Below, piece after piece: positions 7,730 to 38,615 of a stretch of DNA of 40,805 nucleotides. Positions within the stretch are counted from its first letter, which is position 1, and each line of letters begins with the position of its first letter. Under the pieces are notes generated by a model that had not been told where the DNA came from, made no database searches, and saw only the letters and a list, made by a program, of their open reading frames with translations. The stretch spans positions 1 to 40,805 of the forward strand of contig JABWCH010000004.1 in NCBI GenBank assembly GCA_013359215.1. Direction: 5' to 3'. This stretch comes from Candidatus Brocadiia bacterium. GTDB taxonomy: Bacteria > Planctomycetota > Uabimicrobiia > Uabimicrobiales > JABWCH01. The translations under genes and the position numbers were made by a program.

Positions 7730-7773
7730 GGAAGCTTAAAATATTCTCCTTTTTAGCATTTTATCATTTACTT

Positions 7774-9360
7774 TTATTTTCTATGTTTTATAACTATTTT
7801 AGCCAGTGAGAGATCTAAGAGATTTTTATCCTCTCGATTCAAATCGTTCTTTATCTTAGAATCAAGGGTTATATCGTTTATTTTGATATGCCTTCGTGTA
7901 GCTTTTTTATCACTAAAAATATTTTTTATGTATTTAATCAATTTATCCTTTTCCGTATTTACCCAATCGCTAATAATCCGCTGAGATATATTCAGACATT
8001 GAAGAAGACGGCTTGTTTTATCCTGAAAAATCGGAGCAATTTCTACTGGCTCAAATGACAATTGATCACCTGTAATGGTAATTATACCAGCAGAAAGGAT
8101 TGTAGATATTTTTTCTTTCCAAGGTATCTTTAGTTTTTTTGGGGGTAACTTGATATCTTCCTCGGTTTTTTTCTTGACCTTATCTTCTATAGATACAAGA
8201 AAATCTTTTTCTTCCAAAATTTGAGGACATTTATCAACAAATGTTTCCCATACTACTGCATCTAAATATTCTTTACAAAATGGATCTTGTCCTTGTTCTC
8301 CTATAAATCTACGTATTGGTTTGGCTTGTTGTATGCTATTATGAGAAAAAATGAAGCAAGCTGGGTATTTGTCTTCTTTCATCCTAGAAATATATGTATC
8401 TTCTATAGTGAAATCTTCTTCCTTTGCTTTCGGGTTGAGATCGTAACAAATCTTCTTGGGATATACATCTGGATTCTTTCTGAAATAATGATGAAATGCC
8501 AATCGTTCTTGTTCAGGACTTTGTGGTTTATCTTTCAGTATTTTCACGAATTCTTTCATACCAGGTGTTTTTAATAAATATTCTGCAAGAAGTAGCCTTT
8601 TTTTTCGTAATATAGCAACATTTTTATTCCCTCCTTTTATTTTTTCAACACCTAATCTCTCTTCAAAAGTTTTTTCCAATTCATACTCATGTTCATCTTT
8701 TTCTTCATTCCAATATATTGTGGCGATTACAGTATAGGGAGAAAAATTTTGTTTGAAAAGATGGCGATTCTCTATCCAATAACTAAAGATCAAGTAGGTC
8801 TTAGAAAGTAAATCTTCTTGAAGTTTTTTTAGAGGGGATCTTTCAGGAAGTTTTTCCATCAACTTTTTCATCTCGGCCTCGAAATATTTTGCATCAGTGT
8901 TCTGGTTCTCTTCATTCGCTTTGACTTTCTCGGATTCGTTCTGATTTTCCTTACTTGCTTTGACTTCCTCCAGGAATCGAAAGCACAATAAAGCATGACG
9001 CATTAGTTCTTGCCAATCTTTATCCATAGAGGAAGCCAGTTTGTCTGAAGGCAAATAGTAATAAAAAGCCGTTTCCAGAATCTCTAAATCATTGGGTCTG
9101 CCCAATGGTTCCAAAGGGATATTGTCCTCGTCTTCGCTTTCTTGGGATTTAGAACGTCCTTGAGATTTAGTATTGCAATAAGGACAACGTTGTTTATAAC
9201 TATGCTCTTTTCCACAACGTCTGCAGTAAATATAACGAGATGGGTGATCAGTTGTTGATTCTGCTAAAGCTTCTTCATCACTTTTTTCTGAAGGTATAGA
9301 ATTAGAGTAACCATACTTATTTTTATAAGAATAACCAATACCAACACCATACTGAGGCAT
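7774..9360 (-). CDS. zinc-ribbon protein, companion of the fused RNA polymerase
   Basis: No family recognised. After a Tyr/Gly-rich start, residues 46-62 form a zinc ribbon (C46-x2-C49-x9-C59-x2-C62), as seen in many nucleic-acid-binding and transcription proteins. Residues about 90-200 are helical and carry a degenerate internal duplication (KASKENQN / KANEENQN). The remainder is Lys/Glu-rich and helical, ending with a possible winged-helix-like segment (about 450-510, ISQRIISDWVNTE...). The start has a strong GGGAGG and lies 12 bp after the polymerase stop, so the two are co-translated in one operon. It could supply a promoter-recognition, clamp or assembly function that the polymerase fusion lacks (no α, ω or σ is nearby). 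That role is inference from position only. Confidence 0.75.
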   Translation of the reverse strand: MPQYGVGIGYSYKNKYGYSNSIPSEKSDEEALAESTTDHPSRYIYCRRCGKEHSYKQRCPYCNTKSQGRSKSQESEDEDNIPLEPLGRPNDLEILETAFYYYLPSDKLASSMDKDWQELMRHALLCFRFLEEVKASKENQNESEKVKANEENQNTDAKYFEAEMKKLMEKLPERSPLKKLQEDLLSKTYLIFSYWIENRHLFKQNFSPYTVIATIYWNEEKDEHEYELEKTFEERLGVEKIKGGNKNVAILRKKRLLLAEYLLKTPGMKEFVKILKDKPQSPEQERLAFHHYFRKNPDVYPKKICYDLNPKAKEEDFTIEDTYISRMKEDKYPACFIFSHNSIQQAKPIRRFIGEQGQDPFCKEYLDAVVWETFVDKCPQILEEKDFLVSIEDKVKKKTEEDIKLPPKKLKIPWKEKISTILSAGIITITGDQLSFEPVEIAPIFQDKTSRLLQCLNISQRIISDWVNTEKDKLIKYIKNIFSDKKATRRHIKINDITLDSKIKNDLNREDKNLLDLSLAKIVIKHRK

Positions 9361-9372: not shown

Positions 9373-12300
9373 TTAGAAAAATTTTCCAAAAGCGACCTGG
9401 TCTTTGAGTCCCTTGTAACTCTTCTTTTCCTTTTCTTCTTTATCCTTAACCGCATCACATAAGGCTTTGTTCGGCCATTCAAAACAGAATTCTGATAGCC
9501 AGGAATTAGCTATAAACGGCTTAGGCATTAGAGAAGCTCGCAAGATGATTTCGAAATGGCGAATGTCTACGGAACGGCCTGCTTGTAGAATGATAAAGAA
9601 AGCATGGAGCGCCCTGGAGCATAGCTCATAGGGGGAATATTTTTTGCCACTTTTTACTTGCAATAGTTGTTTAAGTTCCTGATCTGGCTTAATCTGGCTC
9701 ATTTCACCTTGATGAAAAACCTGCATGCTGAGTTGAGTCCCTGGCTCGCCAATAGAATGTGCTGACAAGAGACCTATAGGGGTTCCGCAAGGAACTTCTG
9801 GTACATCAGGAGCCACTGCTGCCCATTTCCCCAGACATGAAGAACAAACTCCTTCTTCGTCATCACAGGTTAAGGGCGAAGGTAAAAAAATTTTGGGGAG
9901 TTTGGATAGCTTGTTGGAGTTCGATTCTTTTAAATCGAAAATTTTATCCTCTTCCTTCAATAAATTTTCGATTTCCATTTCATAATTAGCATCTTCTATG
10001 GTAACAAGTTTATTTTCATGCCATTTTTTTATATCTCCACGATTCTGCCATGTTTCTTTTAATTTTTTTATTAGTTCTTTTCTCTCGTAATTTTCTCTCT
10101 CTCTCCACGCTGCTTTTTCTATTTTTTTTATTTCTGTATCTTTGTTTTTCGTTATAATCCGCAGTGTTGTAAAGGGCATTCCAGGTAGTTTCTTCATATC
10201 GCAATAATCGCAATAATCGCAATAATCGTGGGTTTTTTCTATGGCTTTTTCTTCTATTTTTTTCTTGCAATCGCTATTAACTACCTGCAAAGCATGTGCT
10301 CTATGGATAAGCTTACGAGAGAAACCACCAGCGCGGCTTACTCCGAGTTTTTTTTCCACAATGGACGACCGCGCTGCAAAGGCTGCCATAAAATATTCAC
10401 CATAGGTCAGTCCCTTGCACTGGCATCCTTTCAAATCAGGCGTGAACAGAACACCATCATCAGCTTCATAAGACAGACTCCCCAAATGAAATGACATCTG
10501 GCCAATATCGCCAGGCTTTCCCTTGGCTTTGCTTTGCAATAAAACGCTAAGGGGAGACGCAGTGTCAAGAGTTCTACAATCTTCTTTGCTGTTTTCTCTT
10601 ATTTTCTCTTCTAAACTTTTTTTTTCGGCTTCTATTTCTTTTTTGTCTTCTTTCTCTTTGCCTTCTTTGTCTCTTTCTTCTTTGTCTGGGATTCCCTTTG
10701 ACTCTAGTTTTTCCCGATATTTTTCCAAGTCCTGTACACCAAAACTAATCGGTACTTTATGGCATACATTGGCTACTGTTGAAATCGCTCGATGGATGGT
10801 TTCGATTTGCTCTGACCCTAACTTATTGATGGACGCTTCAGGAAATTCTTGTTTCTCTGCAGGAGATTTTTGTTTGCTCCACCATAGTCCCAATTGCAAA
10901 TCTAGCTCCTGAGCATACAAGCTTTTTCCATTGGCTGGATTAAGTGCGTTGCAAGATGGCAGTAAGGTTTTGGCCTCTTCGCAAGCTTTTTGGGATAATG
11001 GGACGTGTACGCCTACAGTATCTCCATCGAAATCTGCCCCAAAACCTTTTACACACGTCACTGGGAGTGCTACAAGATATGGCTCAGGTAACAAATCACG
11101 CAGATAAAAGGCTTGAACATTGGCTCTATGCAATGAAGGATTACGGTTAATAAATACTGGCCTTTTATCTTTTTTTAGCAAATCTTCTTTTATATATTTC
11201 TGTATTTTTTCGAGTATTTGCTCAGCATGCGTTTGTTTCCATTCTGCTTTTATCTGCTCTTTTTCTGGTGATTCTTCGTTAAAATGTTGCAATGCCTCTT
11301 TCTGTGCCAATATTCTTTCAATCTGTCTCTGTAATTTTTGTATCGTCCATCCATTCCATGGTTGATCCTTATCTTGACAGACCATACGATGCAATATGGC
11401 AGGCGACAAAAGTTCATAGGCCAGGTAAAAGCCCAGATCACATTCATCTATCGTAAGAGTTGGGTCAGGCACGATGATAGACCTTGCGCTGAAGTCTACT
11501 CGACGTCCCATCAATTCTTTTCGCAAAATACCTGTCTTGCCTTGTAATCTGAATGATAGACTGCATAATGACTTCTGGCGCAAATCGGTTTTAGGATAGT
11601 AGCACCGACCGGATATCAATTGATTAACGCGATCAAATAGCTGAAAGCGATATTGTCCTTGTTTCCTTTTTTCTTTAGGGTTATCAATGCGTCCTGCTAG
11701 TAAAAGGATCTCCGAATAAAATTCATTGATAGGCCCATAAACTGGTTTGCCATTCGTGGCTACATGATATATGGGACGATGATGCGGTGGCAGTACTGGA
11801 AGTTGATGTAAAAAATAACGTTGGATCTTAGGGAATTCGTTGTAAAGGATTTCTGACCAAGTGAGTTTTACATAATACGGCTTAGATATTATTTCTGGAT
11901 AGATATCGCATAGTCTTGATCTATTTAACTGCTTTTTTTGGTCTTCCCCTTTTTGAGAAAGCATTTTCGTTTCCTCAGATAGTTGGACGCATTCAAAAAT
12001 TTTTTCATCATAAAAGTCCTTATCCAATAAATCATTGAGTGCCTGGATAAGATCAGACTTCAATTTATGGGATATTGCTTTCTTTGAATTATATTCCTTT
12101 ATCTTTTTTTGTATTTCAGCAGAAAACTTGGATACAATGTGCTGAGAAGCTTTATCTTGAGATTCTTGCAATTTTTCTAAAAATTTCTCAAATTTATCAC
12201 CTTTAAAATCACCTTCAGAAAACGAGGGAATCATCTCTTTATCAATAACCGCCTTACTAATGTAATTGCAAATAATTTTCTTTTTTTGTTTTGCTGAATC

Positions 12301-15300
12301 TCTTTCTTTCTCTATTTCTTCCCAAGTTTTATTTAAGCGACGTTGGGCTTGCTCACTATGATTCATCAAGGCTTTCAGCAATTTGCTCGTTTTTTTTAAT
12401 TGTTTATCTCTTTCCTTTTGGGAAGCATCTTGAATATCCTTTTCGATGAATAATCGAGAATCTTCATAGAAAAGATGAGAAAGATAGCCTTTGTCAAGTT
12501 CAAGCTCTTTCTCTACAATGCTTTGGAATAAACGATTGAATATGGGTATAGGCAAATTGATGTGTCCCATTCTCCATCCACGACTCTCGGATGGCAGATG
12601 AGGAATTCCATCGGTGTTAATATCTCCTGGTTTCATTTCTAACTGTTTTTTCCAGCCTTTGCTACGATCTCCAGGATAGTCGAATAAAGGGCCGAAAATT
12701 TGCTGAGAAAATAGCCCTTTCGAATCTGGGGCATTGGTTACATCGTTTTCACGGTATTGAGAGCGGCTTACTTCGCCATGAGACCAGTCAGGCTTTGATT
12801 TATCTTTATTTGTAGCCACAATTTTATTTGTAGCGACAATTTGCATCCGTAAATCGGGAAAATTTTCGTCGGAAAATTTTTCGATGGGAAAAGCATCCTT
12901 ACTATTCGGGAGTAAAGATTTTTCTCCGTCTACCATACACTGCATACCCATAGCCATCCACCAGGCAGCGATGCGATATAGGGAGTAAGGTATTTTAGCG
13001 GGCAGGGAGTGGTTTTCTCCCAGTTCTAGAAATAGAGGCAAAAGTCCACGGAATTTTGGTCCCCCGCCTTTAAAATTAGCAAATTCTTGCAGTAAAGTTT
13101 TTGCATTAGGGTAAGCCATCAATGCCCAAAATTCCCACTCCCCAAAACGTTGTCCGCCCTGTACTTTTTTGCCACTCGGCGGTTGTTGCGTAACTTGGGA
13201 ATAGAATGGGCCAATGGAACGGGCATTCCCTTTATCAACAGCATCAAGGTCGAGACGCATAATCCATTGCTTTCCGACAAGCACATTTTCGATCTTTTCC
13301 TCATTTTCAATATGAGGCGGAAGCGACGGCATCAGATTCTTGTTAGAGGGAAAAGCCAACGTTTTTTTACCACCATTTTCTTCTGTTTCTGCCAATTGCC
13401 CTACATTATGCCTCCCTATCACTCCTAGTGGATTCAGAATGATCTGTATTGTTTCCTTTTTTTCACTATCTACCCTGGGTGCCAAATCGTCAGCTAAAAT
13501 GCGTCCCACTACTCCTTTATTCCCATGACGATTGGCGATTTTGTCGCCTCTTTGCATTCGGCGTTCCTGAATAAGCTGGATAGTACCATCCTGTTTATTG
13601 AATTTAAGATATCCCCATTTGCCTGACGGCACCCGATATTGGCGACCATTAAGTACTTTTTGGGTTTTGAATAGAAGTTCGCCAGGATGAATAGGAATTT
13701 CAAGAAGTATTTGATTCCAATAAAGCGGGTCGTTATTTTGCCCCTTGCACCAAATGCCCGAGTTATAAATGATATATTCCTCTTGGGGCAATAGAAAATC
13801 TTCTATACAACCATTGTTGAAATTGCAGGTTACTTTTCTGATCAATATTATTTTTTTTTGAGCTTCTTCAATTGTCAAACAGGCCCCTTGCTCATCGAAA
13901 AATACAATCTTTTGAAGTGTACACGCTGGTCCGCTTTCTGGATAATGATATTCTTGTTCGATTTCTCTACAGATACACGCGAATTTTGTGGTAAATAAGA
14001 TATCTCCAGCTTTATATTTTTCATGAATCTTAGGATCATCTTTGACCAATTCATTTTCATAGAGATTGTATAAGAAGGGTTTTTCCTGCTTATCGAATTG
14101 AAATTGTATCTGCTTGCCATTATTCGAGGAAGAAATGAGTTCCCACTCTCCTCCTTCCATGCCTTGTACCTGAAAGGTTCGACCATCCAGAGGAAGTTTC
14201 TTCCACAAAATCAGATCCCCTGGAAAAAGCAGGACACCCTCTTCCGCTTTATAGACAACTTCCTCGCTGTCCGAGCTTACCCATGTTTTTTCTATCGTAT
14301 CGTTAACGCTAATTGTCTTACGGATAGTGAGTTTTTTTGCTGCCTCTTCGGTAATTACAACAGCATCTTCATAATTCCACAAACCATAGGACATATAAGC
14401 AGCCAACAGATTGCGTCCTGGAGGATAAATTTCCTGATTTTGAGCGAACTGTTTCTTGTCAGGCATACACAGAGGTCTATCCTCTGGATTGTCTTTCATC
14501 TTAGTGCTTTGATTCATCATGGTACAAGCCATGGAAACTCGATTGCCATCGTCTTTGGTGAGATGTGGCACTTGAAGAGATTGCAAATGGAAGAGACAAG
14601 AAGGATAGGGTAGCCACAACATTCTTTTATTCTCTTTGAGCAAAGAGATAATCTTTTGTTTGTCTCCATAATGAAAGGTATAGCGACGTCCCAAACGAAT
14701 CGAGTTTTTATCTTCATTGATCTTTTGCCAGCAGCTATACTGGAATTTCTGATCCTCCTGATTGAGTACTGTTTGCCATTCGTTTTGCTTCTCTGCTTCG
14801 ATCCCAGACAGGGGATAGACGATAATTACATCATCTTGCTCTATTTGAAATGTCGGCAGATAAAGTGGTTTCTTTTCGCAAACGATTTTATCTTCCTCTA
14901 GCTTCAAGAGATAATAACCAGCGCAAAGGCTACCATATTTAATTTGAGCGGTTCCAGCAAGATGTAAAGTTCGACCAATCTGCGTACCTTGTGGCGTATC
15001 TATAGGATCCAGGCGTCCCAAATGACTGTAGTCCAACTGACGCAACATTTGATTGTGGCGATAACCGTGTTTCCCTGATGGAGAAGGCATCACAATTAGT
15101 TTAACCTGACGAGACAGATGCTTAGATGCAATCTGCTTGTCTATGGGAGTGATCTGACGATAAGGATAATGTTCAATATAATCGGAGATTTTTTTACTCA
15201 AAGATTTTTCCATAGCATCTTGCCATGTTCGGAGTTGGCTATATTGAATATTGCGTATTTCTCTGCTTAAATGCGTTGCCCAAAGTTTTCGCAGGTAGCC

Positions 15301-16200
15301 GTAGATAAATATTCTCAGATAATCTCCCAACAAAAGAATGCGCATATTGGAAAGAGAATATTGGGGCGGAGGGGAATATTTCCCTTGAGACAAAAGTAGC
15401 AGTCGTTTCAGAATGAACTTCCATAATTCTGTTGAAATACCCCTGAAATAGTCAAATTGATCCCAATCCGTAAACTTTTGACATTCTTTTAAACTCTCGA
15501 AAGCATGGAGATTGCTACAGTCAAAAAAGAGTTCCCCTGATATGGCCCGATCTAATATTTCGATATTTGCCTCCCCTTCATACGGAACTTTCAATACTTT
15601 GGCCAGATTTTCTATATCTTTGCTGCTATCTGCTGCCCCTTTGTAAGGGCCATTTTTAAACCCCTCTTCTTCTATTTCCTTAATCTCTTCGGACAATTTA
15701 GGATAGATTTCTTGTAAGCAATTACCAGAAAACTTTTGCTTCCCCCAATGCAAAATAAAACAGAAATTTTCTTTGCATTTTTTAAGTTCAAGCTTAACCA
15801 CAGAAGTGTCTGTTCCATCAGGCTTCATCTCGCAATAATAGGAAGTAACCTTTTCCTTATTATTCGTTTGCGAGCACTCCCTGGTATAAAAATGGGGTCC
15901 GCTGTGGCGGGAAAGGACGGCTATAGGGGTATATTCTCGAACCTTGCCAAGGTTCGCATTGCGAACCTTTAAATTGCCATTGGGAGAAAAAATAGTATCT
16001 ACACCAGGAGCTAACAACTCTCTATTCTCCCGATATTTTTTTTCGCATGATTTTTTCCATTCCTCCCAAAGACGAAAGGAATAATCTTGATGTCCCGATA
16101 CCCAGTAGTCGATCCAATCGCAAATAAGGCTGGGAAGTTTCTCGACAAAAATTTCATAGCTACGGCGATGGATATTGGCATCAAAGGCTTCATAAATCAT
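9373..16200 (-). CDS. single-chain RNA polymerase, β and β' fused (2275 aa)
   Basis: One open frame carries both large polymerase subunits in β-to-β' order. β part (1 to about 1110): SHLGRLDPIDTPQG (about 391-404), NYEDAVVITE, GDKIANRHGNKG with K887 and K895 equivalent to E. coli K1065/K1073, NPLGVIGRHNVGQ, TQQPPSGKK and GGQRFGEWEFWAL. β' part: WSHGEVS, GLFSQQIFGP, RMGHINLPIPI (about 1212), GRRVDFSARS (about 1566), catalytic GADFDGD with D1723, D1725 and D1727, an F-loop-like SKAKGKPGDIGQ, the bridge helix (about 1936-1970), a Zn site ending CDDEEGVCSSC, and SIGEPGTQLSMQVFHQGE with the trigger-loop His kept but the Arg (E. coli R933) changed to Gln. The N-terminal β' zinc finger is missing, as are the large lineage insertions. 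AAGGAG precedes the ATG. The catalytic residues predict an active enzyme. Confidence 0.96.
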   Translation of the reverse strand: MIYEAFDANIHRRSYEIFVEKLPSLICDWIDYWVSGHQDYSFRLWEEWKKSCEKKYRENRELLAPGVDTIFSPNGNLKVRNANLGKVREYTPIAVLSRHSGPHFYTRECSQTNNKEKVTSYYCEMKPDGTDTSVVKLELKKCKENFCFILHWGKQKFSGNCLQEIYPKLSEEIKEIEEEGFKNGPYKGAADSSKDIENLAKVLKVPYEGEANIEILDRAISGELFFDCSNLHAFESLKECQKFTDWDQFDYFRGISTELWKFILKRLLLLSQGKYSPPPQYSLSNMRILLLGDYLRIFIYGYLRKLWATHLSREIRNIQYSQLRTWQDAMEKSLSKKISDYIEHYPYRQITPIDKQIASKHLSRQVKLIVMPSPSGKHGYRHNQMLRQLDYSHLGRLDPIDTPQGTQIGRTLHLAGTAQIKYGSLCAGYYLLKLEEDKIVCEKKPLYLPTFQIEQDDVIIVYPLSGIEAEKQNEWQTVLNQEDQKFQYSCWQKINEDKNSIRLGRRYTFHYGDKQKIISLLKENKRMLWLPYPSCLFHLQSLQVPHLTKDDGNRVSMACTMMNQSTKMKDNPEDRPLCMPDKKQFAQNQEIYPPGRNLLAAYMSYGLWNYEDAVVITEEAAKKLTIRKTISVNDTIEKTWVSSDSEEVVYKAEEGVLLFPGDLILWKKLPLDGRTFQVQGMEGGEWELISSSNNGKQIQFQFDKQEKPFLYNLYENELVKDDPKIHEKYKAGDILFTTKFACICREIEQEYHYPESGPACTLQKIVFFDEQGACLTIEEAQKKIILIRKVTCNFNNGCIEDFLLPQEEYIIYNSGIWCKGQNNDPLYWNQILLEIPIHPGELLFKTQKVLNGRQYRVPSGKWGYLKFNKQDGTIQLIQERRMQRGDKIANRHGNKGVVGRILADDLAPRVDSEKKETIQIILNPLGVIGRHNVGQLAETEENGGKKTLAFPSNKNLMPSLPPHIENEEKIENVLVGKQWIMRLDLDAVDKGNARSIGPFYSQVTQQPPSGKKVQGGQRFGEWEFWALMAYPNAKTLLQEFANFKGGGPKFRGLLPLFLELGENHSLPAKIPYSLYRIAAWWMAMGMQCMVDGEKSLLPNSKDAFPIEKFSDENFPDLRMQIVATNKIVATNKDKSKPDWSHGEVSRSQYRENDVTNAPDSKGLFSQQIFGPLFDYPGDRSKGWKKQLEMKPGDINTDGIPHLPSESRGWRMGHINLPIPIFNRLFQSIVEKELELDKGYLSHLFYEDSRLFIEKDIQDASQKERDKQLKKTSKLLKALMNHSEQAQRRLNKTWEEIEKERDSAKQKKKIICNYISKAVIDKEMIPSFSEGDFKGDKFEKFLEKLQESQDKASQHIVSKFSAEIQKKIKEYNSKKAISHKLKSDLIQALNDLLDKDFYDEKIFECVQLSEETKMLSQKGEDQKKQLNRSRLCDIYPEIISKPYYVKLTWSEILYNEFPKIQRYFLHQLPVLPPHHRPIYHVATNGKPVYGPINEFYSEILLLAGRIDNPKEKRKQGQYRFQLFDRVNQLISGRCYYPKTDLRQKSLCSLSFRLQGKTGILRKELMGRRVDFSARSIIVPDPTLTIDECDLGFYLAYELLSPAILHRMVCQDKDQPWNGWTIQKLQRQIERILAQKEALQHFNEESPEKEQIKAEWKQTHAEQILEKIQKYIKEDLLKKDKRPVFINRNPSLHRANVQAFYLRDLLPEPYLVALPVTCVKGFGADFDGDTVGVHVPLSQKACEEAKTLLPSCNALNPANGKSLYAQELDLQLGLWWSKQKSPAEKQEFPEASINKLGSEQIETIHRAISTVANVCHKVPISFGVQDLEKYREKLESKGIPDKEERDKEGKEKEDKKEIEAEKKSLEEKIRENSKEDCRTLDTASPLSVLLQSKAKGKPGDIGQMSFHLGSLSYEADDGVLFTPDLKGCQCKGLTYGEYFMAAFAARSSIVEKKLGVSRAGGFSRKLIHRAHALQVVNSDCKKKIEEKAIEKTHDYCDYCDYCDMKKLPGMPFTTLRIITKNKDTEIKKIEKAAWRERENYERKELIKKLKETWQNRGDIKKWHENKLVTIEDANYEMEIENLLKEEDKIFDLKESNSNKLSKLPKIFLPSPLTCDDEEGVCSSCLGKWAAVAPDVPEVPCGTPIGLLSAHSIGEPGTQLSMQVFHQGEMSQIKPDQELKQLLQVKSGKKYSPYELCSRALHAFFIILQAGRSVDIRHFEIILRASLMPKPFIANSWLSEFCFEWPNKALCDAVKDKEEKEKKSYKGLKDQVAFGKFF
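10201..10227. repeat. 9-bp tandem repeat inside the polymerase gene
   Basis: Three perfect copies of GCAATAATC. On the minus strand they encode DYC three times (residues 1992-2000 of the polymerase), adding a cysteine cluster between the bridge helix and the remaining Zn-site cysteines. The reading frame is preserved. Confidence 0.85.
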
Positions 16201-16230
16201 TGGCTATCTCCTTTTGACTCTCTCTATCTT

Positions 16231-17718
16231 TTAGACATTATTATCATGTATTCTTTTATGTTCTTCAAAAGGTTTTATGTTGAAGATGGCTTTTGGTCCT
16301 TTATCGCTATAATCAAGACAACGATATATTATATTTTCCAACTCTCTAATATTGCCTGGCCAGTCATATTCCATGAATTTTTCAATATGCTCACGTTTGA
16401 TACTTGGAAGGCTATCTTGATTCTTTTTTTTGTCTGAATGGGCTGATTTCCCTATGCGTTTGGAATTCTCCTGTCGTTTTTTTAACCACCTTTTTCTAAA
16501 GATTTCGGCTAAAATAGGAATATCCTCTTTGTGTTCCCTGAGTGGAGGCAAATCAATGATATGACCTGTAAGACGGAAATACAAATCTTCACGGAAGAGC
16601 GATTCTTTCCCCATTTTTTTACTTCTGAATATCCAATCCCACAAAGGACGATTCGTAGCAGTAACCAGGCGAACATCTACAGGCTCAGGAACTCCGCCCA
16701 ATGGACAGATTTCTCCAGGGTCTATGGCACGCAGCAAATGCCTCTGGATATCCAGTGGAGCGTCTCCCACTTCATCCAGGAATAAAGTACTACAAGATGC
16801 CCTTTGAAAAGCGCCCTTTACTTCAGGCGTACCTTTTTGGGGTTGGTCTTTTGCTTTGCCAAAAAGGGTCACTTCCAGAAAGTTGCCCTCCAATGGGACT
16901 GCTGCCAGACTCTCGGCTACCAACTCTTTAGACTTTCTGGGACTACACTCATGGATCATCTTGGCTACCAACTCTTTTCCTGCGCCTGTTTCGCCTCGAA
17001 TCAAAACAGGTAGAAAAGACGGCCCAATAAATTTTTGCACATCTCGCTTGATCTGCAAGAGCTTAATAGATAGAGTTGCCATTTCTTGCAAAGGGTCATT
17101 TTCTATATCGCATAATACCTTGTTTAGAATCAGTTGGTCTAAAATCGTTTTTAACAGGTTATCCAGATTTTTTTGAAAGCTTTCTTTCTTTTTCTCTCCT
17201 GATGAAAAAAAAGGAAGTACATTGTTTTTATCACATTCTGGATCTTGCAAAAAGGAATCATTTTTTTTCGAGTTTTGGGAGATATAGATTACCCTTAGCC
17301 TCTTTTTTATCCAATCTTTATCCATTTCAGTATCTTTGGCTTTCTTTTCACTATCTTCGGCTTTTTCTGTAGTATCTTCGACTTTCTCTGTAGTATCTTT
17401 ATCTTTCTCTACTATAGATTTTCTAAGTTCATCTATAATCTTAGGCCCGATGTTATCTTCAGTCTTAGCATCCCAGATATCCATCAAGATAAGACAAAAT
17501 TTTTTCTTTTGGAATTGAGAAGACATTTCTTTAATTTTATACAGCGAAAACCATTCTGACTTTGGTTCTATTTTAACGTCTTCTTCCAAATGATCTTGTG
17601 CAGGAACTTGCTTGTTATATTCTTGAATTACGGAAGGCAAATGCTTATTAAGGTAGTCAACCAACTCCTCTAGCAATTTTCCTTTGCCGAATTCATCATC
17701 TAAAAATGGAATGATCAT
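16231..17718 (-). CDS. receiver-AAA+ protein, NtrC class without GAFTGA loop or HTH
   Basis: Residues 1-200 look like a divergent receiver domain: acidic start FLDDE, phospho-acceptor candidate D80 in LILMDIWD, Ser in VIYISQNS and a later Lys-rich PFFSSGEKKK, split by a charged linker with repeats such as DTTEKVEDTTEKAED. Residues about 220-460 are the AAA+ domain of σ54 activators: Walker A GETGAGKE (about 242-249), Walker B TLFLDEVGD, sensor I ATNRPL, arginine finger FREDLYFRL and WPGNIRELENII. Where NtrC has LFGHEKGAFTGA this protein has LFGKAKDQPQKGTP, so the σ54-binding loop is gone; the protein also ends without a Fis-type HTH. It therefore cannot work as a normal σ54 activator. AAGGGAGAG precedes its ATG. 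The polymerase gene follows 30 bp later, making that enzyme the obvious remodelling target (inference). Confidence 0.9.
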   Translation of the reverse strand: MIIPFLDDEFGKGKLLEELVDYLNKHLPSVIQEYNKQVPAQDHLEEDVKIEPKSEWFSLYKIKEMSSQFQKKKFCLILMDIWDAKTEDNIGPKIIDELRKSIVEKDKDTTEKVEDTTEKAEDSEKKAKDTEMDKDWIKKRLRVIYISQNSKKNDSFLQDPECDKNNVLPFFSSGEKKKESFQKNLDNLLKTILDQLILNKVLCDIENDPLQEMATLSIKLLQIKRDVQKFIGPSFLPVLIRGETGAGKELVAKMIHECSPRKSKELVAESLAAVPLEGNFLEVTLFGKAKDQPQKGTPEVKGAFQRASCSTLFLDEVGDAPLDIQRHLLRAIDPGEICPLGGVPEPVDVRLVTATNRPLWDWIFRSKKMGKESLFREDLYFRLTGHIIDLPPLREHKEDIPILAEIFRKRWLKKRQENSKRIGKSAHSDKKKNQDSLPSIKREHIEKFMEYDWPGNIRELENIIYRCLDYSDKGPKAIFNIKPFEEHKRIHDNNV

Positions 17719-17743: not shown

Positions 17744-18088
17744 TTAAAAAATATAATATTTTTTAAATTTTTTGATGTGTTCCTGAATTAAATTCCAATG
17801 ACGGACACCATCCTCAATATTTCTGGTCCAGTCAGGAGGATTGGCATCTGTGTTTGCTTCTAAAAACTCAGCAAGAGAAGACTCTTTCCAAGAATCGCGA
17901 CTACAATACTCAGCTATTACTTTTTTGTTTGTTTGCTTAAGCTGCCCCAAGGCATCGTCCAAAAAAACTTTTGCATTTTCAATGCTTTCTTTATGTTCGA
18001 GTATAGGCGATTTATTAAGATAATGGAATTTTCCGTATATTTTCTTGGAAAATTCGTGTAGACTGGCAGGTGTCAGAAAACCTGGCAT
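17744..18088 (-). CDS. small helical protein, first gene of the polymerase operon (114 aa)
   Basis: No family recognised. It is a soluble, mostly helical protein with aromatic residues near both ends (FSKKIYGKFHYL; VRHWNLIQEHIKKFKKYYIF) and no cysteines forming a metal site. AGGAG lies just upstream of the ATG, and a σ70-type promoter sits about 30-60 bp upstream. The AAA+ gene begins 25 bp after its stop. Being first in the operon and small, it could be a regulator, a small polymerase subunit or an inhibitor; nothing in the sequence decides between these. Confidence 0.7.
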   Translation of the reverse strand: MPGFLTPASLHEFSKKIYGKFHYLNKSPILEHKESIENAKVFLDDALGQLKQTNKKVIAEYCSRDSWKESSLAEFLEANTDANPPDWTRNIEDGVRHWNLIQEHIKKFKKYYIF

Positions 18089-18117: not shown

Positions 18118-18146
18118 ATCATAATCTAAACGATTTTGTTTTTCAA
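18118..18146 (-). promoter_or_regulatory. σ70-type promoter of the polymerase operon
   Basis: Read on the minus strand: TTGAAA (18146-18141), a 17-nt spacer, then TATGAT (18123-18118). Transcription would start near 18111, about 20 nt before the 114-aa gene. It is a close match to the housekeeping consensus and is the only good match I see on this strand in the divergent gap. Confidence 0.65.
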
Positions 18147-18198
18147 TATGTTTACCAAAGAAATTTTCTTAAAAAATTCTTTATGGTTCAAAAATTTC

Positions 18199-18227
18199 TT
18201 TACAGAAAAAATTAAAAAAGCTAAAAT
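18199..18227 (+). promoter_or_regulatory. σ70-type promoter of the cas10 operon
   Basis: TTTACA (18199-18204), a 17-nt spacer and TAAAAT (18222-18227), giving a start near 18234 and a leader of about 67 nt before the cas10 ATG at 18301. The opposite-strand promoter lies about 55 bp away, so the two operons share a short AT-rich control region (18089-18300). Confidence 0.5.
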
Positions 18228-18300
18228 CGTTTTTCTTCAGAACGAAGTACAAAATGGGGCTACTATAAAATTCACATTTTTTTTAATTGGAATTACAGGT

Positions 18301-19932
18301 ATGCAATATCTTTGGATAGCGGATATCAGCGGCATTCAATCTTACATTTTCTCTACTTATTTACTAAAAACGATCGTTGGCGCCAGCGAACTCCTGGTGA
18401 AAGCGACTGATAAAGAAATTCTTCAAAAAGAGCTTAAAGCGTATCCCGATAGCCAACTGCTTTCGAACCGTGGGGGGAATTTGGTATGCAGGTTTGAAAA
18501 GGAAGAGGATTGCAAACAATTTACCGCATGGTTTCTTTCTCGTTTGGCCGACCTCGCTCCAGGAGTGCATTGTGCGATTGCATGGGAGGAAGCAAACAAG
18601 AATCTTCAACCAACGGAAATATTTCAGCGTTGTCGAGAAAAAGTGCAAAATGCCAAATCTAAAGCCATTGCTTTAGGAAACGAGCCATCGGATGCCTATC
18701 CGATATATTCTCCCCCTTCCTGGAATTTTTTTCGTCTTTGCGGCATTTGTGGAAGCAATCCAGTGATAGGAAAGGTGAGCAAAGCAGAGAATGATGGTAA
18801 AATAAAAACTTACCATTTGTGTTCTGCTTGTCACGCCAAGTGGCAACAAGCCGACAAACGGGATACCACTGCCATGCATCAGCTAGAAGAGCATTTCATT
18901 GCTGCATTGAAAAGTCTGGCGACAAAGCCGAATGATGATACAGATTTAGTCAAGGCTGCGTCTCAGGACGAATTGGTATGGAAAAATATAAAATTTGCTT
19001 ATAAAAATATTGTCCCCAGAATCATAAAACCCGACAGCAAGGATGATATGGATAGCATCAATCCTTATATTGCAGCAGTGGCTATAGATGGTAATTATAT
19101 GGGAAAATGGTTCGATCAAAAGTTGCAAGGAGAAAATTTCGACGAGGTTTGCAGTCAATTTGCCAAGGCATCGGCTGAACTGGAAGAAAATAGCCATAAG
19201 GCAATCACTTTGGGCCTGGCCCAAGCTTTACATCGCCAACAATTACCCAAAGATGAAGACGGAGCTTATTTTTTACCATTTCGCCCTATTATCATGGCTG
19301 GAGACGATCTGTTTTTTCTGGTGGATGCAAAATACGTTTTTACCATTGTTTCGGTTTTTTTAGACAAAATGAAGGAGACATTTCCCGATATCTCTTTTGC
19401 TATCGGGATTGCTATTGTCAAAGAGAGCTTTCCTTTTCATGCTTCTTACAGTTTAGCAAAAGAACTGGTCACCTCAGCTAAAAATAAAACCAGAGCAGAA
19501 TCCTGTATTGATTTTGAATTGAACCGCGATCATTCCCTCATGCCTCTATCTCTAAGGCGTAAGGAGAGAGAACTTAAAGGCTATACTTTGACTCGCCGTC
19601 CATTCACCATAACGAAATTTCAGTCCATGGAAACTAACTCGCAGTTATTGCAGAAATTACCTGGCAACAAACGAAAGCATCTCTATGAAATGTTGGCAAA
19701 TTTTGACCAGTCTAACCTTTCTATTGATGATATTCAGGAAGAATTACGCGAATTTTTCGTGCATTTAGAGAAAGAGCAAGCTAAAAGTCTGTGGCAATTT
19801 TTAGAGAAACAACATGAGAAGCCAGTATCTGCCAAAGAGGATCCTTTTTATATCCCAGATATGTTTGCCAATTATTCAACTCTGGTTCTAGACTGTCTGG
19901 ATTATCTGGACATCATTGCAAAAGCGGAGTAA
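18301..19932 (+). CDS. cas10: Cas10, type III-D-like, without HD domain
   Basis: I choose the ATG at 18301 because the family-typical opening YLWIADISGIQSYIF starts there; the open frame upstream runs through the promoter. The protein (543 aa) goes straight into the first palm, so the N-terminal HD DNase domain is absent. A treble-clef-like Zn finger has C147-x2-C150 and C174-x2-C177. First palm: AVAIDGNYMGKW (D263). Second palm: the GGDD motif appears as AGDD (A333-D336), keeping both metal-binding aspartates. A helical C-terminal domain follows. It is the large subunit of a type III effector and, with both aspartates kept, is probably able to make cyclic oligoadenylate when target RNA binds; it should not cut DNA through HD. 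It heads the operon and ends 3 bp before csm3. Confidence 0.93.
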   Translation: MQYLWIADISGIQSYIFSTYLLKTIVGASELLVKATDKEILQKELKAYPDSQLLSNRGGNLVCRFEKEEDCKQFTAWFLSRLADLAPGVHCAIAWEEANKNLQPTEIFQRCREKVQNAKSKAIALGNEPSDAYPIYSPPSWNFFRLCGICGSNPVIGKVSKAENDGKIKTYHLCSACHAKWQQADKRDTTAMHQLEEHFIAALKSLATKPNDDTDLVKAASQDELVWKNIKFAYKNIVPRIIKPDSKDDMDSINPYIAAVAIDGNYMGKWFDQKLQGENFDEVCSQFAKASAELEENSHKAITLGLAQALHRQQLPKDEDGAYFLPFRPIIMAGDDLFFLVDAKYVFTIVSVFLDKMKETFPDISFAIGIAIVKESFPFHASYSLAKELVTSAKNKTRAESCIDFELNRDHSLMPLSLRRKERELKGYTLTRRPFTITKFQSMETNSQLLQKLPGNKRKHLYEMLANFDQSNLSIDDIQEELREFFVHLEKEQAKSLWQFLEKQHEKPVSAKEDPFYIPDMFANYSTLVLDCLDYLDIIAKAE

Positions 19933-19935: not shown

Positions 19936-20622
19936 ATGACTAATATGATTGATGTAGAAATTCAATACCGATTGAAATTTGAAACCTTTTTTCATTTTGG
20001 AAGTGGAGATGGAGGGCTGGCATGCGACAGCGGCATCTTGAGGGGTAACAATCGTTCTTATTTTCAAATTCCCGCATCTTCTCTCAAAGGAATGATTGCT
20101 GACCAATGTCGGACGCTGGGGCGCATTTACCAGGGGTTTGGGCTATGTAAAAATGCCCAGGATAAAAAGCCTGGCGGGCGTTGCTCTCAGCAAAAAACTC
20201 CGTGCATCTTTTGCCAGATTTTTTACGAAGGATTCCGATTTACCTCCATGCAAGCCCCTTTGAAAAATACTGTCGTTCGAGCTTATGTAAAAATTAATCC
20301 AGCGTCTGGGACAGCGGAAGAAAAAAAGCTGATGTTCGAGGAGATGATACCACCAGATTACGACAACCAGGATACATTAACAATCGAGGGAGCATTGCCT
20401 TCAACCTCTGCCGATTTAGCAATGACTTTATTGTTGGGCGGGTTGTACCTGTTGAATAATGCGGGCGCACGAAAATCAAAACAAGGTGCAGTACGCTGTC
20501 AAATCCAGAAAATCAACTATAGCAACGAAACACTAACAAGCGCAGAGGTATGGCAAAACAGATGGCTAAATGTCGAAAGCTGGAAAAAAATAGAAGGAAT
20601 GAAGGAGCAAGCCCATGGTTAA
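19936..20622 (+). CDS. csm3: Csm3-like Cas7 backbone subunit
   Basis: A single RAMP domain of 228 aa. The opening FETFFHFGSGDGGLACDSGI, followed by QIPASSLKGMI, is the Csm3/Cas7 signature; the Asp in the ACDSG block (about residue 31) is in the position of the RNA-cleaving Asp of Csm3. Four cysteines (about residues 70-95, LCKN..GRC..PCIFC) suggest a zinc-binding thumb insertion. A Gly/Lys-rich loop, GARKSKQGAVRC, comes near the end. It would pack along crRNA and cut bound target RNA every 6 nt. The start follows GGAG at the end of cas10; the stop overlaps the csx10 start by 8 bp. Confidence 0.88.
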   Translation: MTNMIDVEIQYRLKFETFFHFGSGDGGLACDSGILRGNNRSYFQIPASSLKGMIADQCRTLGRIYQGFGLCKNAQDKKPGGRCSQQKTPCIFCQIFYEGFRFTSMQAPLKNTVVRAYVKINPASGTAEEKKLMFEEMIPPDYDNQDTLTIEGALPSTSADLAMTLLLGGLYLLNNAGARKSKQGAVRCQIQKINYSNETLTSAEVWQNRWLNVESWKKIEGMKEQAHG

Positions 20623-21727
20623 TATCTCTATCGTCTGCTCTTTAAAATCGCCCTTTTTGATTAAAAAAAACCATAGCGATGCCAATATTCGAGAGTCTGA
20701 AGATTATATTCCTGGACGAAATTTATGGGGTGCATTTGCTGCTATCTATCGCCAAAAGAATCCAGATAAAAATTTAGATGAGGACGAAAATTTTTATGAT
20801 CTTTTCTTATCTGGGAAAGTACGATTCGGGAATTGCTATTTGAAAAACTCGATTCCAGTACCGCTTTCTCTCTATGAATGCAGTTCTCATCAACATGGAC
20901 ATTTCAAACAAGATTGCCTTGTAGATCAGCCTGAAATATGGAAGTGCCAGAATCAAGAAAATGGGATAATTTGCGGCTTGCCCTTAAAGCCATTGAGCGG
21001 GTATATGGGCTATGACAACCCTATTGATAATTTAAAAATTCAAAACCCGCTCACTGAATTAAGGATGAGAAATCATCTGGCGTATCAAAGCTTTACCACA
21101 GGCGAAGGCGGATTATTTACGGATATGGTGATCTCAGCCCAAAATGATTTTAAGGGTATCATCTCATTCCAAGAAGAAAAGAAACGAAAGGAATTTATTG
21201 ATATTTTCAAAGAAGAATTAAAGGGAGGTAAGAGCCTTTACATCGGGGCTGATCGCGATATTTATGGAAAAATAAAGCTGCGCTTTAGCCAAGAAACGGA
21301 ATTGTTTGTTGGCAAGTCCTTTGAGGAACGATGGAAAAATTCAAGCAATGGCAAACTATCTTTTTCTCTTACATTACTATCAGATACGATTGTTACTGAT
21401 GATTGGCTGGGAACTCCTTCTCGTCTGGAACCTGATTTACTCAAAGAATGGACAGGTCTAAAGGGTGAGCTTAGACTAGAGAGCTGGTTTTCACGCATCC
21501 AGCCAATCCATAGTTTTTCCAACGTGCATCAAATGCCTCGAGAAGAGGATCAGGCTTTAAGCAAAGGTTCTGCTTTTCTCTATAGTTATAAACCGTCGGG
21601 CAGTGAAGCCCCAAATCTTTTGCATGATAAACTGAAACAATTGGAACAAGATGGCATCGGTTTCCGTCTAGCTGAAGGTTTTGGACAGATCGCCATCAAT
21701 CTACCCATTCATTGGAAGAAACCATGA
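20615..21727 (+). CDS. csx10: Csx10, Cas5-group RAMP of type III-D
   Basis: The N-terminus (ISIVCSLKSPFLIKKN, then DYIPGRNLWGAFAAIY) and the following FLSGKVRFGNCYL block match the Csx10 pattern, the marker subunit of subtype III-D that takes the Cas5 place and holds the crRNA 5' handle. A four-Cys zinc-binding segment (about residues 90-130: C in LYEC, DC, KC, IICG) follows, and the C-terminal GFRLAEGFGQIAIN is the glycine-rich loop of the RAMP fold. Length of 370 aa is normal. Its ATG overlaps the csm3 end and its TGA overlaps the next ATG (ATGA), so translation is coupled on both sides. Confidence 0.85.
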   Translation: MVNISIVCSLKSPFLIKKNHSDANIRESEDYIPGRNLWGAFAAIYRQKNPDKNLDEDENFYDLFLSGKVRFGNCYLKNSIPVPLSLYECSSHQHGHFKQDCLVDQPEIWKCQNQENGIICGLPLKPLSGYMGYDNPIDNLKIQNPLTELRMRNHLAYQSFTTGEGGLFTDMVISAQNDFKGIISFQEEKKRKEFIDIFKEELKGGKSLYIGADRDIYGKIKLRFSQETELFVGKSFEERWKNSSNGKLSFSLTLLSDTIVTDDWLGTPSRLEPDLLKEWTGLKGELRLESWFSRIQPIHSFSNVHQMPREEDQALSKGSAFLYSYKPSGSEAPNLLHDKLKQLEQDGIGFRLAEGFGQIAINLPIHWKKP

Positions 21728-22161
21728 GCATTTCTAAAATTCGTAAATTTTTAAAGGATACCCAATTTTTAAAAGATCCCGGTTTATCTGCTCAGTGCCA
21801 GGCTTTATGCCAGGTAGCAGAAAATGCGCGTTCTTTAAACCAGGTTGTCCAATTTTTACGCCATCGTGCGGGAAATGAAGCAGCCCAAAAAATATGGAAA
21901 AAGGAAATTTCCCAAGATCAAGCCAATGATTTGATCGCTTCTGCAAGTGCATGTTCATCCAATACAAAGATCAAGATAGGGGAACTGTCAGAAAGAGTTC
22001 TTTTCTGGGAGGTAATCGCATTGCAGTTGATCTCCTTCTCTGGCCAACCAGATGGATTACAAAAATCTAAAGATTGGCTAAAGCTGTTAGAAAAGCAAAT
22101 CGAGTTAGGGCAAAAATTATCGCTTGTAAACCCTGGTAGAGAGGAGGAAAAGAAGCCATGA
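21724..22161 (+). CDS. small helical protein, probable Cas11-type small subunit
   Basis: A 145-aa all-helical protein starting at the ATG that overlaps the csx10 stop (ATGA); a TTG 12 bp upstream is less likely. It has no RAMP loop, zinc site or membrane segment. Type III-D operons usually carry a Cas11/Csm2-like small subunit of this size between the RAMP genes, and position plus helical content suggest that role. The sequence itself shows no motif that proves it. The stop overlaps the next gene by 4 bp. Confidence 0.65.
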   Translation: MSISKIRKFLKDTQFLKDPGLSAQCQALCQVAENARSLNQVVQFLRHRAGNEAAQKIWKKEISQDQANDLIASASACSSNTKIKIGELSERVLFWEVIALQLISFSGQPDGLQKSKDWLKLLEKQIELGQKLSLVNPGREEEKKP

Positions 22162-23654
22162 CTCAGGAAAAATTGCTTACCACAATTTATATATGGAAAG
22201 GAAAATTGCAGGCACAAACACCTTTTCATATCGGCAAAGGAGAAGAAGGAGAGAATACCGATGCTATAGTAATGCGGGACTGGAAGAGTCGTCCATACAT
22301 CCCTGCTAGCTCATTAGCTGGAGTCTTTCGGAGTTGCTTTCGGATGATGGGAGTCCCTAAAAATATAATTGATATATTATGCGGTAGTTGCAATCAACGA
22401 TCTTTGCTTCGTTATGAAGATGCCTATCCTATCCAGGACGCAGCAACCGAAATACGGGATGGCGTATCCATCAACAGAGAGCGAAAAGTGGCTCAGGATA
22501 AAGCTAAATTCGACCTGGAAACCGTTGCTAAAGGGACGTGCTTTCAATTTTCTTTACAATTGCATTTGGAAGATTGGAGCGGGGATCAAGATGTATCTGT
22601 CGAAGAATTGATTGGGCATGTGAACAAAGCAATAGACGCATGGTGCAAAGACTTTTGCCATATCGGCAAAGGAGCCTCTCGTGGTCTGGGCTGGTTTCAT
22701 TTGGAAATAAGCCAACGTGAAAAGGTAGACTTAGCACAGCCAGAAGAATTATGTGGCTGGTTACTCGAACGGAAGGGCGTGGTATGGAACGACCAAAAGG
22801 AAATGGGAAATCCATCTCTCTTGAAATTGTCTTTTGTCCTGACAGTAGAAGAACCGATAGTCATCAAAGATTCTCGTTATAGCTTTCGAGAAAATTTGCC
22901 TATTCATGGATTGAATTTGCAGTCGAATCATTCCGGCTTTTTATCCGATATTCCCGATTACCAACCTCTGCTGACCAGGCTCCATGATGGTAAATACCAT
23001 TATTTGCTAACGGGCAGCTCTATCAAGGGGCCACTGCGTCTTCAAGCCGAATGTATTTTGAAAGATATACTGGGAGAAGACAAAGTTTGCGATCTTACCC
23101 AATCGGACAATTGTAGCGCCAGGCTCAAGGCACAAAAAGAACGAAACTACACAAGCAGGAAAGAATGGGAAAAGCGGGTATGTCCTGCCTGTGCTATGTT
23201 CGGCAATACTTACCTTAAATCTCGAATCATCATCACCGATGCTATAGGTAAAAATATTGCTACCAAAAGGTTGGACCATGTCGCCCTCGACGAGTTCACC
23301 CAGGAGCCCATGGAGGAAGGTGCTAAATTCGACGGCGAAGTGATTTATACAGGAGAATTCGAAACAACATGGATGGCGTGTTTTTTTGGGTCGAAAGCCT
23401 CCAACGGATTTTTGCCATGGCAAAATATCATCCTCTATTTACTTTTACGCGATATACAAAAAGGACGAATCCGCTTTGGCTTTGGTAAATGTAAAGGGTT
23501 TGGCAAACTAACAATCAAAGAAGAGACTATTTCGCAATTTTTGTCGAATGCAGGTATAAAGATTGAAGAAATGAAAAAAGTCATGGAGGAATTCCAAAAG
23601 AATGTTCGTCCCTGGAAAGAGATACTTCCTGCCTGCATAGAGAAAGGACAATAG
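22158..23654 (+). CDS. double Cas7 (Csm3-like) fusion protein
   Basis: Two RAMP domains in one chain (498 aa). Domain 1 (about 1-200): TPFHIGKGEEGENTDAIV, YIPASSLAGVFRS and the glycine loop GKGASRGLGWFHL. Domain 2 (about 220-460): LTGSSIKGPLRL, a CPACAMFG zinc knuckle, LDEFTQEPMEEGAKF and the glycine loop RFGFGKCKGFGKL. Asp residues sit near the cleavage position in domain 1 (NTDAIVMRD) and before SSIKG in domain 2. Fused Cas7 subunits are a feature of type III-D and of its single-chain descendant III-E. It would form two adjacent backbone positions of the effector. ATGA overlap with the upstream gene. Confidence 0.85.
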   Translation: MTQEKLLTTIYIWKGKLQAQTPFHIGKGEEGENTDAIVMRDWKSRPYIPASSLAGVFRSCFRMMGVPKNIIDILCGSCNQRSLLRYEDAYPIQDAATEIRDGVSINRERKVAQDKAKFDLETVAKGTCFQFSLQLHLEDWSGDQDVSVEELIGHVNKAIDAWCKDFCHIGKGASRGLGWFHLEISQREKVDLAQPEELCGWLLERKGVVWNDQKEMGNPSLLKLSFVLTVEEPIVIKDSRYSFRENLPIHGLNLQSNHSGFLSDIPDYQPLLTRLHDGKYHYLLTGSSIKGPLRLQAECILKDILGEDKVCDLTQSDNCSARLKAQKERNYTSRKEWEKRVCPACAMFGNTYLKSRIIITDAIGKNIATKRLDHVALDEFTQEPMEEGAKFDGEVIYTGEFETTWMACFFGSKASNGFLPWQNIILYLLLRDIQKGRIRFGFGKCKGFGKLTIKEETISQFLSNAGIKIEEMKKVMEEFQKNVRPWKEILPACIEKGQ

Positions 23655-23657: not shown

Positions 23658-24317
23658 ATGAGCCAAGACAAGCAGAATCAACTCTATATGGTCGGATGGC
23701 GAATAGAAGCCAACAAATTGCTTGATATTATAAAAACCAAAGATGACCATCAACAATCAATCAATAAATGGGAATGGGATTGGATGTATCTTGAATACTA
23801 TGGATCAGTCGTGCTGGATAATTTTGCCTCTGGTTGTAGCCATTGGCAGAAAACGCCTATAAAACGACTTTATCGTGGCAGGGTATGGAACTGCATTGCC
23901 GAGCTGCGATGGAGACGCTATGCCGAATCACAGGGCGAAGATAGGTTTATGGTTGTCTTACTCAGCGAGGATAAAGATTGGATAGACTCCATGACGAAGC
24001 ATGTAGGTATTATTTGTAAAGAAGCAAACCCAAAAATCTCGACGGTTGCTCCGTGTATGACCCAGTTTCAAAACATTTCTTTATGGGGAGAAACAAAAGT
24101 TCCCAGCCAGGATGGGTATCTAAACTTCCATCATTCTGGCCTACATAGAGAATTTTGCTATCCTAAAGAAATGGGAAAAGACAATGGCAAGGAAGTGGCC
24201 GTCTGTGTGAAAACTTACTACAAGAACGACAGACCTGTGGCATTCAGATTTTGTGGCCCCCAAAAAACAATTGAAAAAAAATTAGGAGAAAGGGATGACT
24301 TGTTTATTACCGTATAA
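23658..24317 (+). CDS. Csx19-like type III-D accessory protein
   Basis: A 219-aa protein that resembles Csx19 (TIGR03984) in three ways: position between the RAMP genes of a III-D operon, a central RVWNCIAELRWRRY segment like the family's 'R-(I/V)-F/W-...-E-L-x-x-W/R' block, and a C-terminal VAVCVKTYYKNDRPVAFRF strand pair. Length is near the family's 150-220. AAAGGA lies upstream of the ATG. Its role in the complex is not known. The similarity is judged by eye, so the assignment is moderate. The end overlaps the next gene by 23 bp. Confidence 0.6.
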   Translation: MSQDKQNQLYMVGWRIEANKLLDIIKTKDDHQQSINKWEWDWMYLEYYGSVVLDNFASGCSHWQKTPIKRLYRGRVWNCIAELRWRRYAESQGEDRFMVVLLSEDKDWIDSMTKHVGIICKEANPKISTVAPCMTQFQNISLWGETKVPSQDGYLNFHHSGLHREFCYPKEMGKDNGKEVAVCVKTYYKNDRPVAFRFCGPQKTIEKKLGERDDLFITV

Positions 24318-38545: not shown

Positions 38546-38615
38546 CACAAGAACGAAAATTTATTTTTTGTCTATATTTTACAAGAACATTGCATTAATT
38601 TTAGAAAGGCTAAAA

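Follow-up and report, generated by a model that had tools for sequence, protein, structure and literature searches.

A single-chain β–β′ RNA polymerase and a bEBP-type AAA+ ATPase encoded divergently from a type III-D CRISPR operon, with relatives in Thermotogota and other bacteria

The locus and its polymerase

The window analysed here, a stretch of 40,805 nucleotides on contig JABWCH010000004.1, comes from the metagenome-assembled genome (MAG) of a Candidatus Brocadiia bacterium (6.39 Mb in 576 contigs, 84.7% complete). It encodes a single-chain β–β′ RNA polymerase (RNAP) of 2275 aa with its catalytic residues intact (9373..16200, minus strand), preceded by an AAA+ ATPase of the bacterial enhancer binding protein (bEBP)/NtrC type (495 aa; 16231..17718, minus strand), and a divergently oriented CRISPR operon. 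The minus-strand run starts with a 114-aa protein that has no family match in Pfam, PADLOC or PHROGs (17744..18088), continues with the AAA+ ATPase and the RNAP and ends with an orphan 528-aa protein (7774..9360), separated by gaps of 25, 30 and 12 bp, respectively. The original prediction, made from the sequence of the window, described the polymerase and the CRISPR operon and mentioned neither the AAA+ gene nor the CARF-histidine kinase described below.

As that prediction had it, the β and β′ blocks follow one another in one open reading frame (ORF), with Pfam matches in the order Rpb2_3, Rpb2_6, Rpb1_1, Rpb1_2 and Rpb1_5, and a match to Rpb2_7 that is below the cut-off. Residue equivalences were taken from an alignment to E. 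coli K-12 β and β′, and the predicted catalytic residues are found where they had been placed. The two β lysines (K887 and K895, equivalent to β K1065 and K1073), the three aspartates of the DFDGD catalytic triad (D1723, D1725 and D1727; β′ D460, D462 and D464) and the trigger-loop His (H2163; H936) are kept, and the trigger-loop Arg is replaced by Gln (Q2160; R933). The β′ N-terminal zinc finger has none of its four Cys in the alignment, again in line with the prediction, and the second zinc site is kept (C1978, C2112, C2119 and C2122; β′ C814, C888, C895 and C898). The chain stops 112 residues past the trigger-loop His. Large insertions had been predicted to be absent but the protein has large inserts of its own when compared with the single-chain P0017/P0018 proteins. 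As the trigger-loop Arg is Gln in the window, and the trigger-loop His itself is Gln in a Thermotogota relative (L080), the trigger loop varies among these RNAPs. Judged by its catalytic residues, the window polymerase is a putative two-barrel (β/β′) DNA-dependent RNAP.

It is not the only RNAP of its genome. Separate housekeeping rpoB and rpoC frames are present on contig C33, as the original prediction required, and the best separate-gene matches among the proteins fetched are from a 'Phycisphaerales bacterium' for rpoC (53%) and a 'Planctomycetota bacterium' for rpoB (55%). Housekeeping rpoB-rpoC fusions of the Helicobacter/Wolbachia type also have β and β′ in one chain, but there the fusion is the housekeeping enzyme, whereas the window genome has its housekeeping genes apart. 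That the window protein is itself a housekeeping fusion was considered and dropped, given the separate pair and the rejection of a clade with housekeeping enzymes (see below); NCBIfam models of such fusions, 2839 and 2890 positions long, also give it scores far below the cut-off. Fusion as such is not rare in the order, since in three other genomes (G107, contig C172; G089, contig C1 of about 5.37 Mb; G051, contig C15) the housekeeping rpoB-rpoC is one frame of 2715-2832 aa. Misassembly was likewise considered and dropped; the G+C content of 0.392, compared with 0.405 and 0.368 on two other contigs, is not decisive.

The nearest listed protein has 27% identity to the window RNAP over 59%, and there is no second RNAP in five other genomes of the same order. 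When the P0017/P0018 profile was used with 294 genomes of the host phylum, scoring two candidates per genome, the matches listed were solely rpoB/rpoC-like frames, and as the window RNAP itself was not among them this is no evidence of absence. Neither a genome scan with A1 nor viral scans in which the window RNAP or P0017 served as the query gave a match, and a viral scan with A2 identified at least 29 loci.

Of the genes divergent from the polymerase run, cas10 is the first, with 47 bp between the listed ORFs, or 212 bp if Cas10 starts at Met-56, a start chosen by eye. All on the plus strand, and named by family matches unless stated otherwise, are Cas10 of the III-D type (18136..19932; palm motif AGDD, read in the translation), a Cas7/Csm3-like RAMP (19936..20622), Csx10, the Cas5 of type III-D (20615..21727), a 149-aa protein without a family match that is cas11-like by position alone (21712..22161), a Cas7_IIId double RAMP (22158..23654), Csx19 (23658..24317; E 3.8e-6) and a large Cas7_IIId/Csm3-type RAMP (24295..27012). 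With Cas10, Csx10/Cas5_IIId, Cas7_IIId and Csx19 all present the system is, by gene content, type III-D, as originally predicted. These genes are followed by a CARF domain fused to a histidine-kinase ATPase domain (27259..28830; CARF5 E 7.9e-31, H-box by eye), the closest relative of which is the CARF of CARF_ADA/Cad1-type chains, by an 1130-aa protein without a PADLOC match, part of which, from about residue 645 to 770, is receiver-like (28835..32227; PF00072 E 2.4e-4, below the cut-off), and, further on, by Cas6 (38568..39461).

The AAA+ partner and its relatives

The window AAA+ protein is of the Sigma54_activat type, with Walker A (GETGAGKE), Walker B (LFLDE) and FREDL motifs kept and the C-terminal helix-turn-helix (HTH) missing. 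Its best PADLOC match is RtcR_PspF2. The N-terminal domain appears receiver-like by eye and is not a recognised CARF; in the AlphaFold2 model the predicted local distance difference test (pLDDT) score is below 50 for most of the first 170 residues, too low for a fold to be read from it.

Relatives were sought with a short catalytic-region profile in one genome per species, covering 84,980 species. This gave 56 loci, from which 18 with two-gene RNAPs and 7 others were set aside, and the remaining 31, with single-chain or partial RNAPs, were examined. An AAA+ akin to that of the window, located adjacent to the RNAP or up to about 5 kb away, is present at 22 of the 31 loci by similarity and at 23 by clustering, and at none of the 18 two-gene loci, the 7 others or the 29 viral loci listed. 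Of the eight loci in which clustering shows no such gene, three (L062, L075 and L086) run out at the RNAP or shortly past it; the other five (L046, L058, L074, L085 and L087) hold more sequence and still have no match. Based on these sequence comparisons, the pairing of a single-chain RNAP with a bEBP-type AAA+ partner is one that recurs in Thermotogota, Verrucomicrobiota, Lentisphaerota and other MAGs. A GAFTGA-like loop is kept in all 22 Thermotogota AAA+ sequences, and in most relatives overall, and the Thermotogota-group proteins are without an HTH.

In the relatives there is often a middle gene, between those of the RNAP and AAA+, that encodes a protein of ~180-370 aa, basic where it begins and helical where it ends, with a strongly acidic segment as well. 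Weak but repeated signals suggest a resemblance to part of sigma54, possibly with an extra-long helix (ELH)-HTH fold. The relatives' middle genes were not among the matches in a PF04552 search, a Foldseek search with a model of the middle protein returned nothing significant and a scan for -24/-12 promoters found none. Short sigma54-like frames of 301-324 aa occur elsewhere in six Thermotogota genomes (G472, G474, G479, G481, G490 and G491). In the window, the 528-aa gene occupies the position of the middle gene and may have an N-terminal zinc ribbon, identified by eye.

Linkage to CRISPR and CARF genes

A seven-sequence profile identified the single-chain RNAP in 27 of 103 Thermotogota genomes, and a cas or CARF gene is present in the stretch fetched around the RNAP (4 to 20 kb) in 21 of these 27. 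The names given to neighbouring gene clusters come from testing one or several of their members rather than each member, using PADLOC or, for Cas6, similarity to the window protein. In Athalassotoga saccharophila the order RNAP-middle-AAA+-CARF-Cmr1-Cas10 is found on one strand. Type III genes are located in these stretches at L080, L071, L165 and L169, with RAMPs also at L168 and L170 by position, and type I-B genes at L073, L163 and L164; L174 and L175 have Cas1/Cas2 with PrimPol and Argonaute, and other linked loci have Cas6 or Cas1-4/Cas3. At six loci (L165, L166, L167, L168, L170 and L178) a CARF gene lies 0-17 bp upstream of the RNAP on the same strand. No cas or CARF gene is present in the stretches fetched from G472 (20 kb) and G479 (16 kb), both of which are genomes without a RAMP gene, or from G394, G396, G397 and G410 (each <12 kb). 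Where named, the related proteins from sources that include Mesotoga prima, Kosmotoga, Marinitoga, Fervidobacterium and Petrotoga are labelled 'hypothetical protein' or 'RNA polymerase (subunit beta)'.

Where both are on one contig, the distance from the RNAP to the nearest RAMP is 1.6 kb in G467, about 5-6 kb in G411, G510, G509 and G403, 10 kb in G459, 20 kb in G445, 21 kb in G441, 29 kb in G453 and about 790 kb in G439. Five near-genome-length contigs carry an RNAP as well as a RAMP, and on four of them the two are less than 30 kb apart, an arrangement with a chance of 1.1e-5 under a cut-off picked after the distances had been seen. Cas10 (PF22335 at E < 1e-7) is present in 16 of 29 module genomes and in 23 of 196 genomes of the host phylum, a comparison that is indicative only as the phyla differ; weaker PF22335 matches appear, from the matched positions, to be GGDEF proteins. 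Three additional observations concern these loci. At L179 (7825-11122), close to Cas1/Cas4, the RNAP is split into two shorter frames, 211 and 568 aa long, that do not adjoin, and it may be a decayed copy; a DarT-like gene (7403-8071) separates the type III genes from the RNAP module at L169; and G403 has, on contigs C5, C8 and C25, two housekeeping-size PF00623 frames plus a single-chain one, so this bin may be mixed.

Outside the Thermotogota, RAMPs and Cas10 are encoded on the RNAP contig of a Burkholderiales locus (L089), about 24-28 kb away, and in the other genomes RAMP or Cas10 matches are either missing or on a contig different from that of the RNAP. In the Kiritimatiellae-type group there is a convergent CARF-AAA+-HTH gene, and the L078 copy matches RtcR (PF06956). 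The RNAP module and the CARF-AAA+-HTH gene are found together at L070, L076-L078, L083 and L096, often with a DEAD/ResIII-type helicase cluster, in genomes mostly without Cas10. There is a full sigma70 gene at L070, clustered also at L076, and an E1-E2-type match (16036-17718) near another RNAP-AAA+ module at L088.

A possible transcription module and alternative explanations

From the gene content, catalytic residues, linkage and AAA+ motifs, the reading that we favour, with moderate confidence, is that these genes form a CRISPR-linked private transcription module that works in the manner of RNAP-sigma54 with a bEBP and is predicted to be triggered through CARF domains and cyclic nucleotides. 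The RNAP, the AAA+ and, in the relatives, the middle protein likely act jointly as a promoter-opening system. At the level of the family, a small factor with a putative sigma54-like ELH-HTH fold would recruit the single-chain RNAP to promoters, which the AAA+ ring would open by ATP hydrolysis, in the way that bEBPs act on RNAP bound to sigma54. The activating signal would be cyclic oligonucleotides made by Cas10 and sensed by a CARF protein, presumably the one encoded 0-17 bp upstream of the RNAP at the six Thermotogota loci and, in the Kiritimatiellae-type group, perhaps the CARF domain of the RtcR-like AAA+. In the window, the sensor would be the CARF-histidine kinase, which could pass phosphate to the 1130-aa protein, at its receiver-like stretch, and possibly also to the N-terminal part of the AAA+. 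The module would then carry out transcription without recourse to the polymerase of the cell, and its likely targets are the defence genes themselves, which could so remain transcribed when a phage inhibits or takes over the host enzyme. We infer, in this scheme, complex formation, the signal, the targets, the purpose and that the window copy works like its relatives. The use in the immune response that the original prediction assigned to the polymerase, as a dedicated or backup enzyme, is likewise hypothetical. A more specific version is put forward only tentatively. In it, the CRISPR loci of two or more phyla would have a full sigma54-type transcription machine in miniature (single-chain RNAP, sigma54-like promoter factor and AAA+ activator), switched on by cyclic nucleotides through CARF domains, that keeps defence genes transcribed once the host RNAP is under the control of a phage, and the link in the window would be a CARF-histidine-kinase phosphorelay.

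Several observations weigh against a module of this kind or against the window having one. Cas10 is missing from 8 of 10 Kiritimatiellae-type genomes and the module is therefore not confined to CRISPR; the predicted co-occurrence of homologues with CRISPR genes applies to most of the Thermotogota carriers but mostly not to this group. The window AAA+ has lost the GAFTGA loop. The 528-aa protein has no similarity to the middle families by profile and no Pfam, PADLOC or PHROGs family. None of the 391 further genomes of the phylum that were searched encodes a homologue, and a search of 5.8 billion proteins, with 7996 candidates scored, returned only the window's own copy. As the original prediction had proposed, the polymerase was placed in a tree with phage and other RNAPs. 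The tree splits into housekeeping, phage, Thermotogota and Verrucomicrobiota/Kiritimatiellae groups, and the window RNAP is a very long branch that the tree does not place. In five approximately unbiased (AU) tests, uncorrected and based on a quick tree, a clade of the window RNAP with housekeeping RNAPs was rejected (p 0.016) and one with phage RNAPs was nearly rejected (p 0.061); clades with the Thermotogota (0.27), the Verrucomicrobiota/Kiritimatiellae (0.26) and all AAA-linked modules (0.22) were not rejected. That the window RNAP belongs to the same system as its relatives is suggested by gene content, namely the RNAP, AAA+ and type III/CARF genes, and is not shown by the tree.

The long branch, the unmatched 528-aa gene, the loss of GAFTGA and the fact that three genomes from this order have their housekeeping rpoB-rpoC in one frame are also what would be expected if the window RNAP arose by an independent fusion, unrelated to the modules of the Thermotogota and Verrucomicrobiota type, with an ordinary regulator as its AAA+ neighbour. 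We consider this unlikely, as the same pairing of RNAP, bEBP-type AAA+ and type III/CARF genes is found by position and content, and the AU tests reject the housekeeping clade but not that of all AAA-linked modules. More doubtful is that the polymerase is a passenger, an enzyme of phage, plasmid or other mobile origin stranded in a defence island with no CRISPR role. Phages do carry single-chain and other β/β′-type RNAPs, grouping with these is not quite rejected and a YhgA-like putative transposase is encoded close to the contig end (39684-40613). However, the module and its adjacency to cas/CARF genes recur over diverse Thermotogota, the six CARF genes directly precede the RNAP and the viral loci listed are without the AAA+. 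The phage enzymes (YonO, jumbo and P23-45 types; PMC7824862) resemble those described here in having two-barrel cores, some in one chain, apart from the housekeeping rpoB/rpoC, but the loci here are bacterial, with AAA+ and cas/CARF genes, and the Thermotogota and Verrucomicrobiota/Kiritimatiellae clades are apart from the phage sequences.

Two-barrel polymerases also include the eukaryotic QDE-1-type cellular RNA-dependent RNA polymerases (cRdRPs), and the RNAP at L174 (1667-12318) and L175 adjoins PrimPol, Cas2, Argonaute-type and Cas1 genes, with PrimPol and Argonaute tested at L174 and assigned by cluster at L175. An RNA-templated enzyme that makes secondary guides or triggers, with target or guide RNA as the template, for a CRISPR or Argonaute arm is, nevertheless, improbable, as the domains of bacterial DNA-dependent β/β′, including the second zinc site, are kept and the partners, the AAA+ and in relatives a putative sigma54-like protein, are of a promoter-opening type. 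A role in spacer acquisition, with the RNAP making RNA substrates or opening DNA for Cas1-Cas2 (with PrimPol or reverse transcriptase), is very improbable: Cas1 is encoded within about 8 kb of the RNAP in 7 of the 27 Thermotogota genomes (G441, G510, G428, G491, G490, G474 and G404), but in the stretches fetched at many loci, for example L080, effector or CARF genes are present without a cas1, and Cas1 was not named among the window proteins scanned.

The favoured reading, a private transcription module, has its closest known counterpart in RNAP-sigma54 with NtrC, PspF or RtcR. The AAA+ family is the same, most relatives have a GAFTGA-like loop, the small partner gives weak signals of a sigma54-like fold, and the RNAP is encoded in the same gene run. 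The differences are that the RNAP is here one chain outside the housekeeping operon, and those already noted in the AAA+ motifs and the PF04552 search. RtcR, a CARF-gated bEBP (PMC4012209, PMC9650030), provides a second parallel through the L078 match and the PADLOC assignment, although the window AAA+ has no recognised CARF. CARF-AAA+ regulators have been predicted to act via sigma54 (PMC4012209), and E. coli RtcR was not activated by oligoadenylates (PMC9650030). The type III-E CASP-sigma (Csx29/Csx30) and CalpL/CalpT/CalpS systems also tie a CRISPR alarm to a transcriptional response, but there a sigma factor is released when its inhibitor is degraded by proteolysis (PMC10028731, PMC11229360), whereas the locus here encodes its own RNAP and AAA+ partner. 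In a Marinitoga CAPP paper (PMC8211822) 'RNA polymerase' is found once, in a reference, and it is absent from the main text of PMC10910872. No report of a CRISPR-associated β/β′ polymerase was recognisable by title or abstract in a search with most subscription papers and all bioRxiv preprints outside its scope. If correct, an RNA polymerase belonging to the immune system itself would add a new layer to defence and would explain how defence genes could be expressed during host shut-off. The module also offers a small RNAP-activator system for study, with A. saccharophila among its carriers.

The window has several additional features. No CRISPR array was found among the 20 largest of at least 60 repeat families, and an array may lie elsewhere; imperfect repeat copies of 54-89 nt, with spacings of 168 and 127 nt, are present upstream of Cas6 (38182-38530). 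The Pfam matches of the window proteins scanned include no phage structural family. A 353-aa protein with a weak ZorA match (32256-33317) and a 1392-aa pentapeptide-repeat protein (33393-37571) are encoded downstream of the CRISPR genes. Elsewhere in the host genome there are two more strong Cas10 matches (C312, 11273-11650; C46, 12217-12681), and the genome seems, from these, to hold several type III systems.
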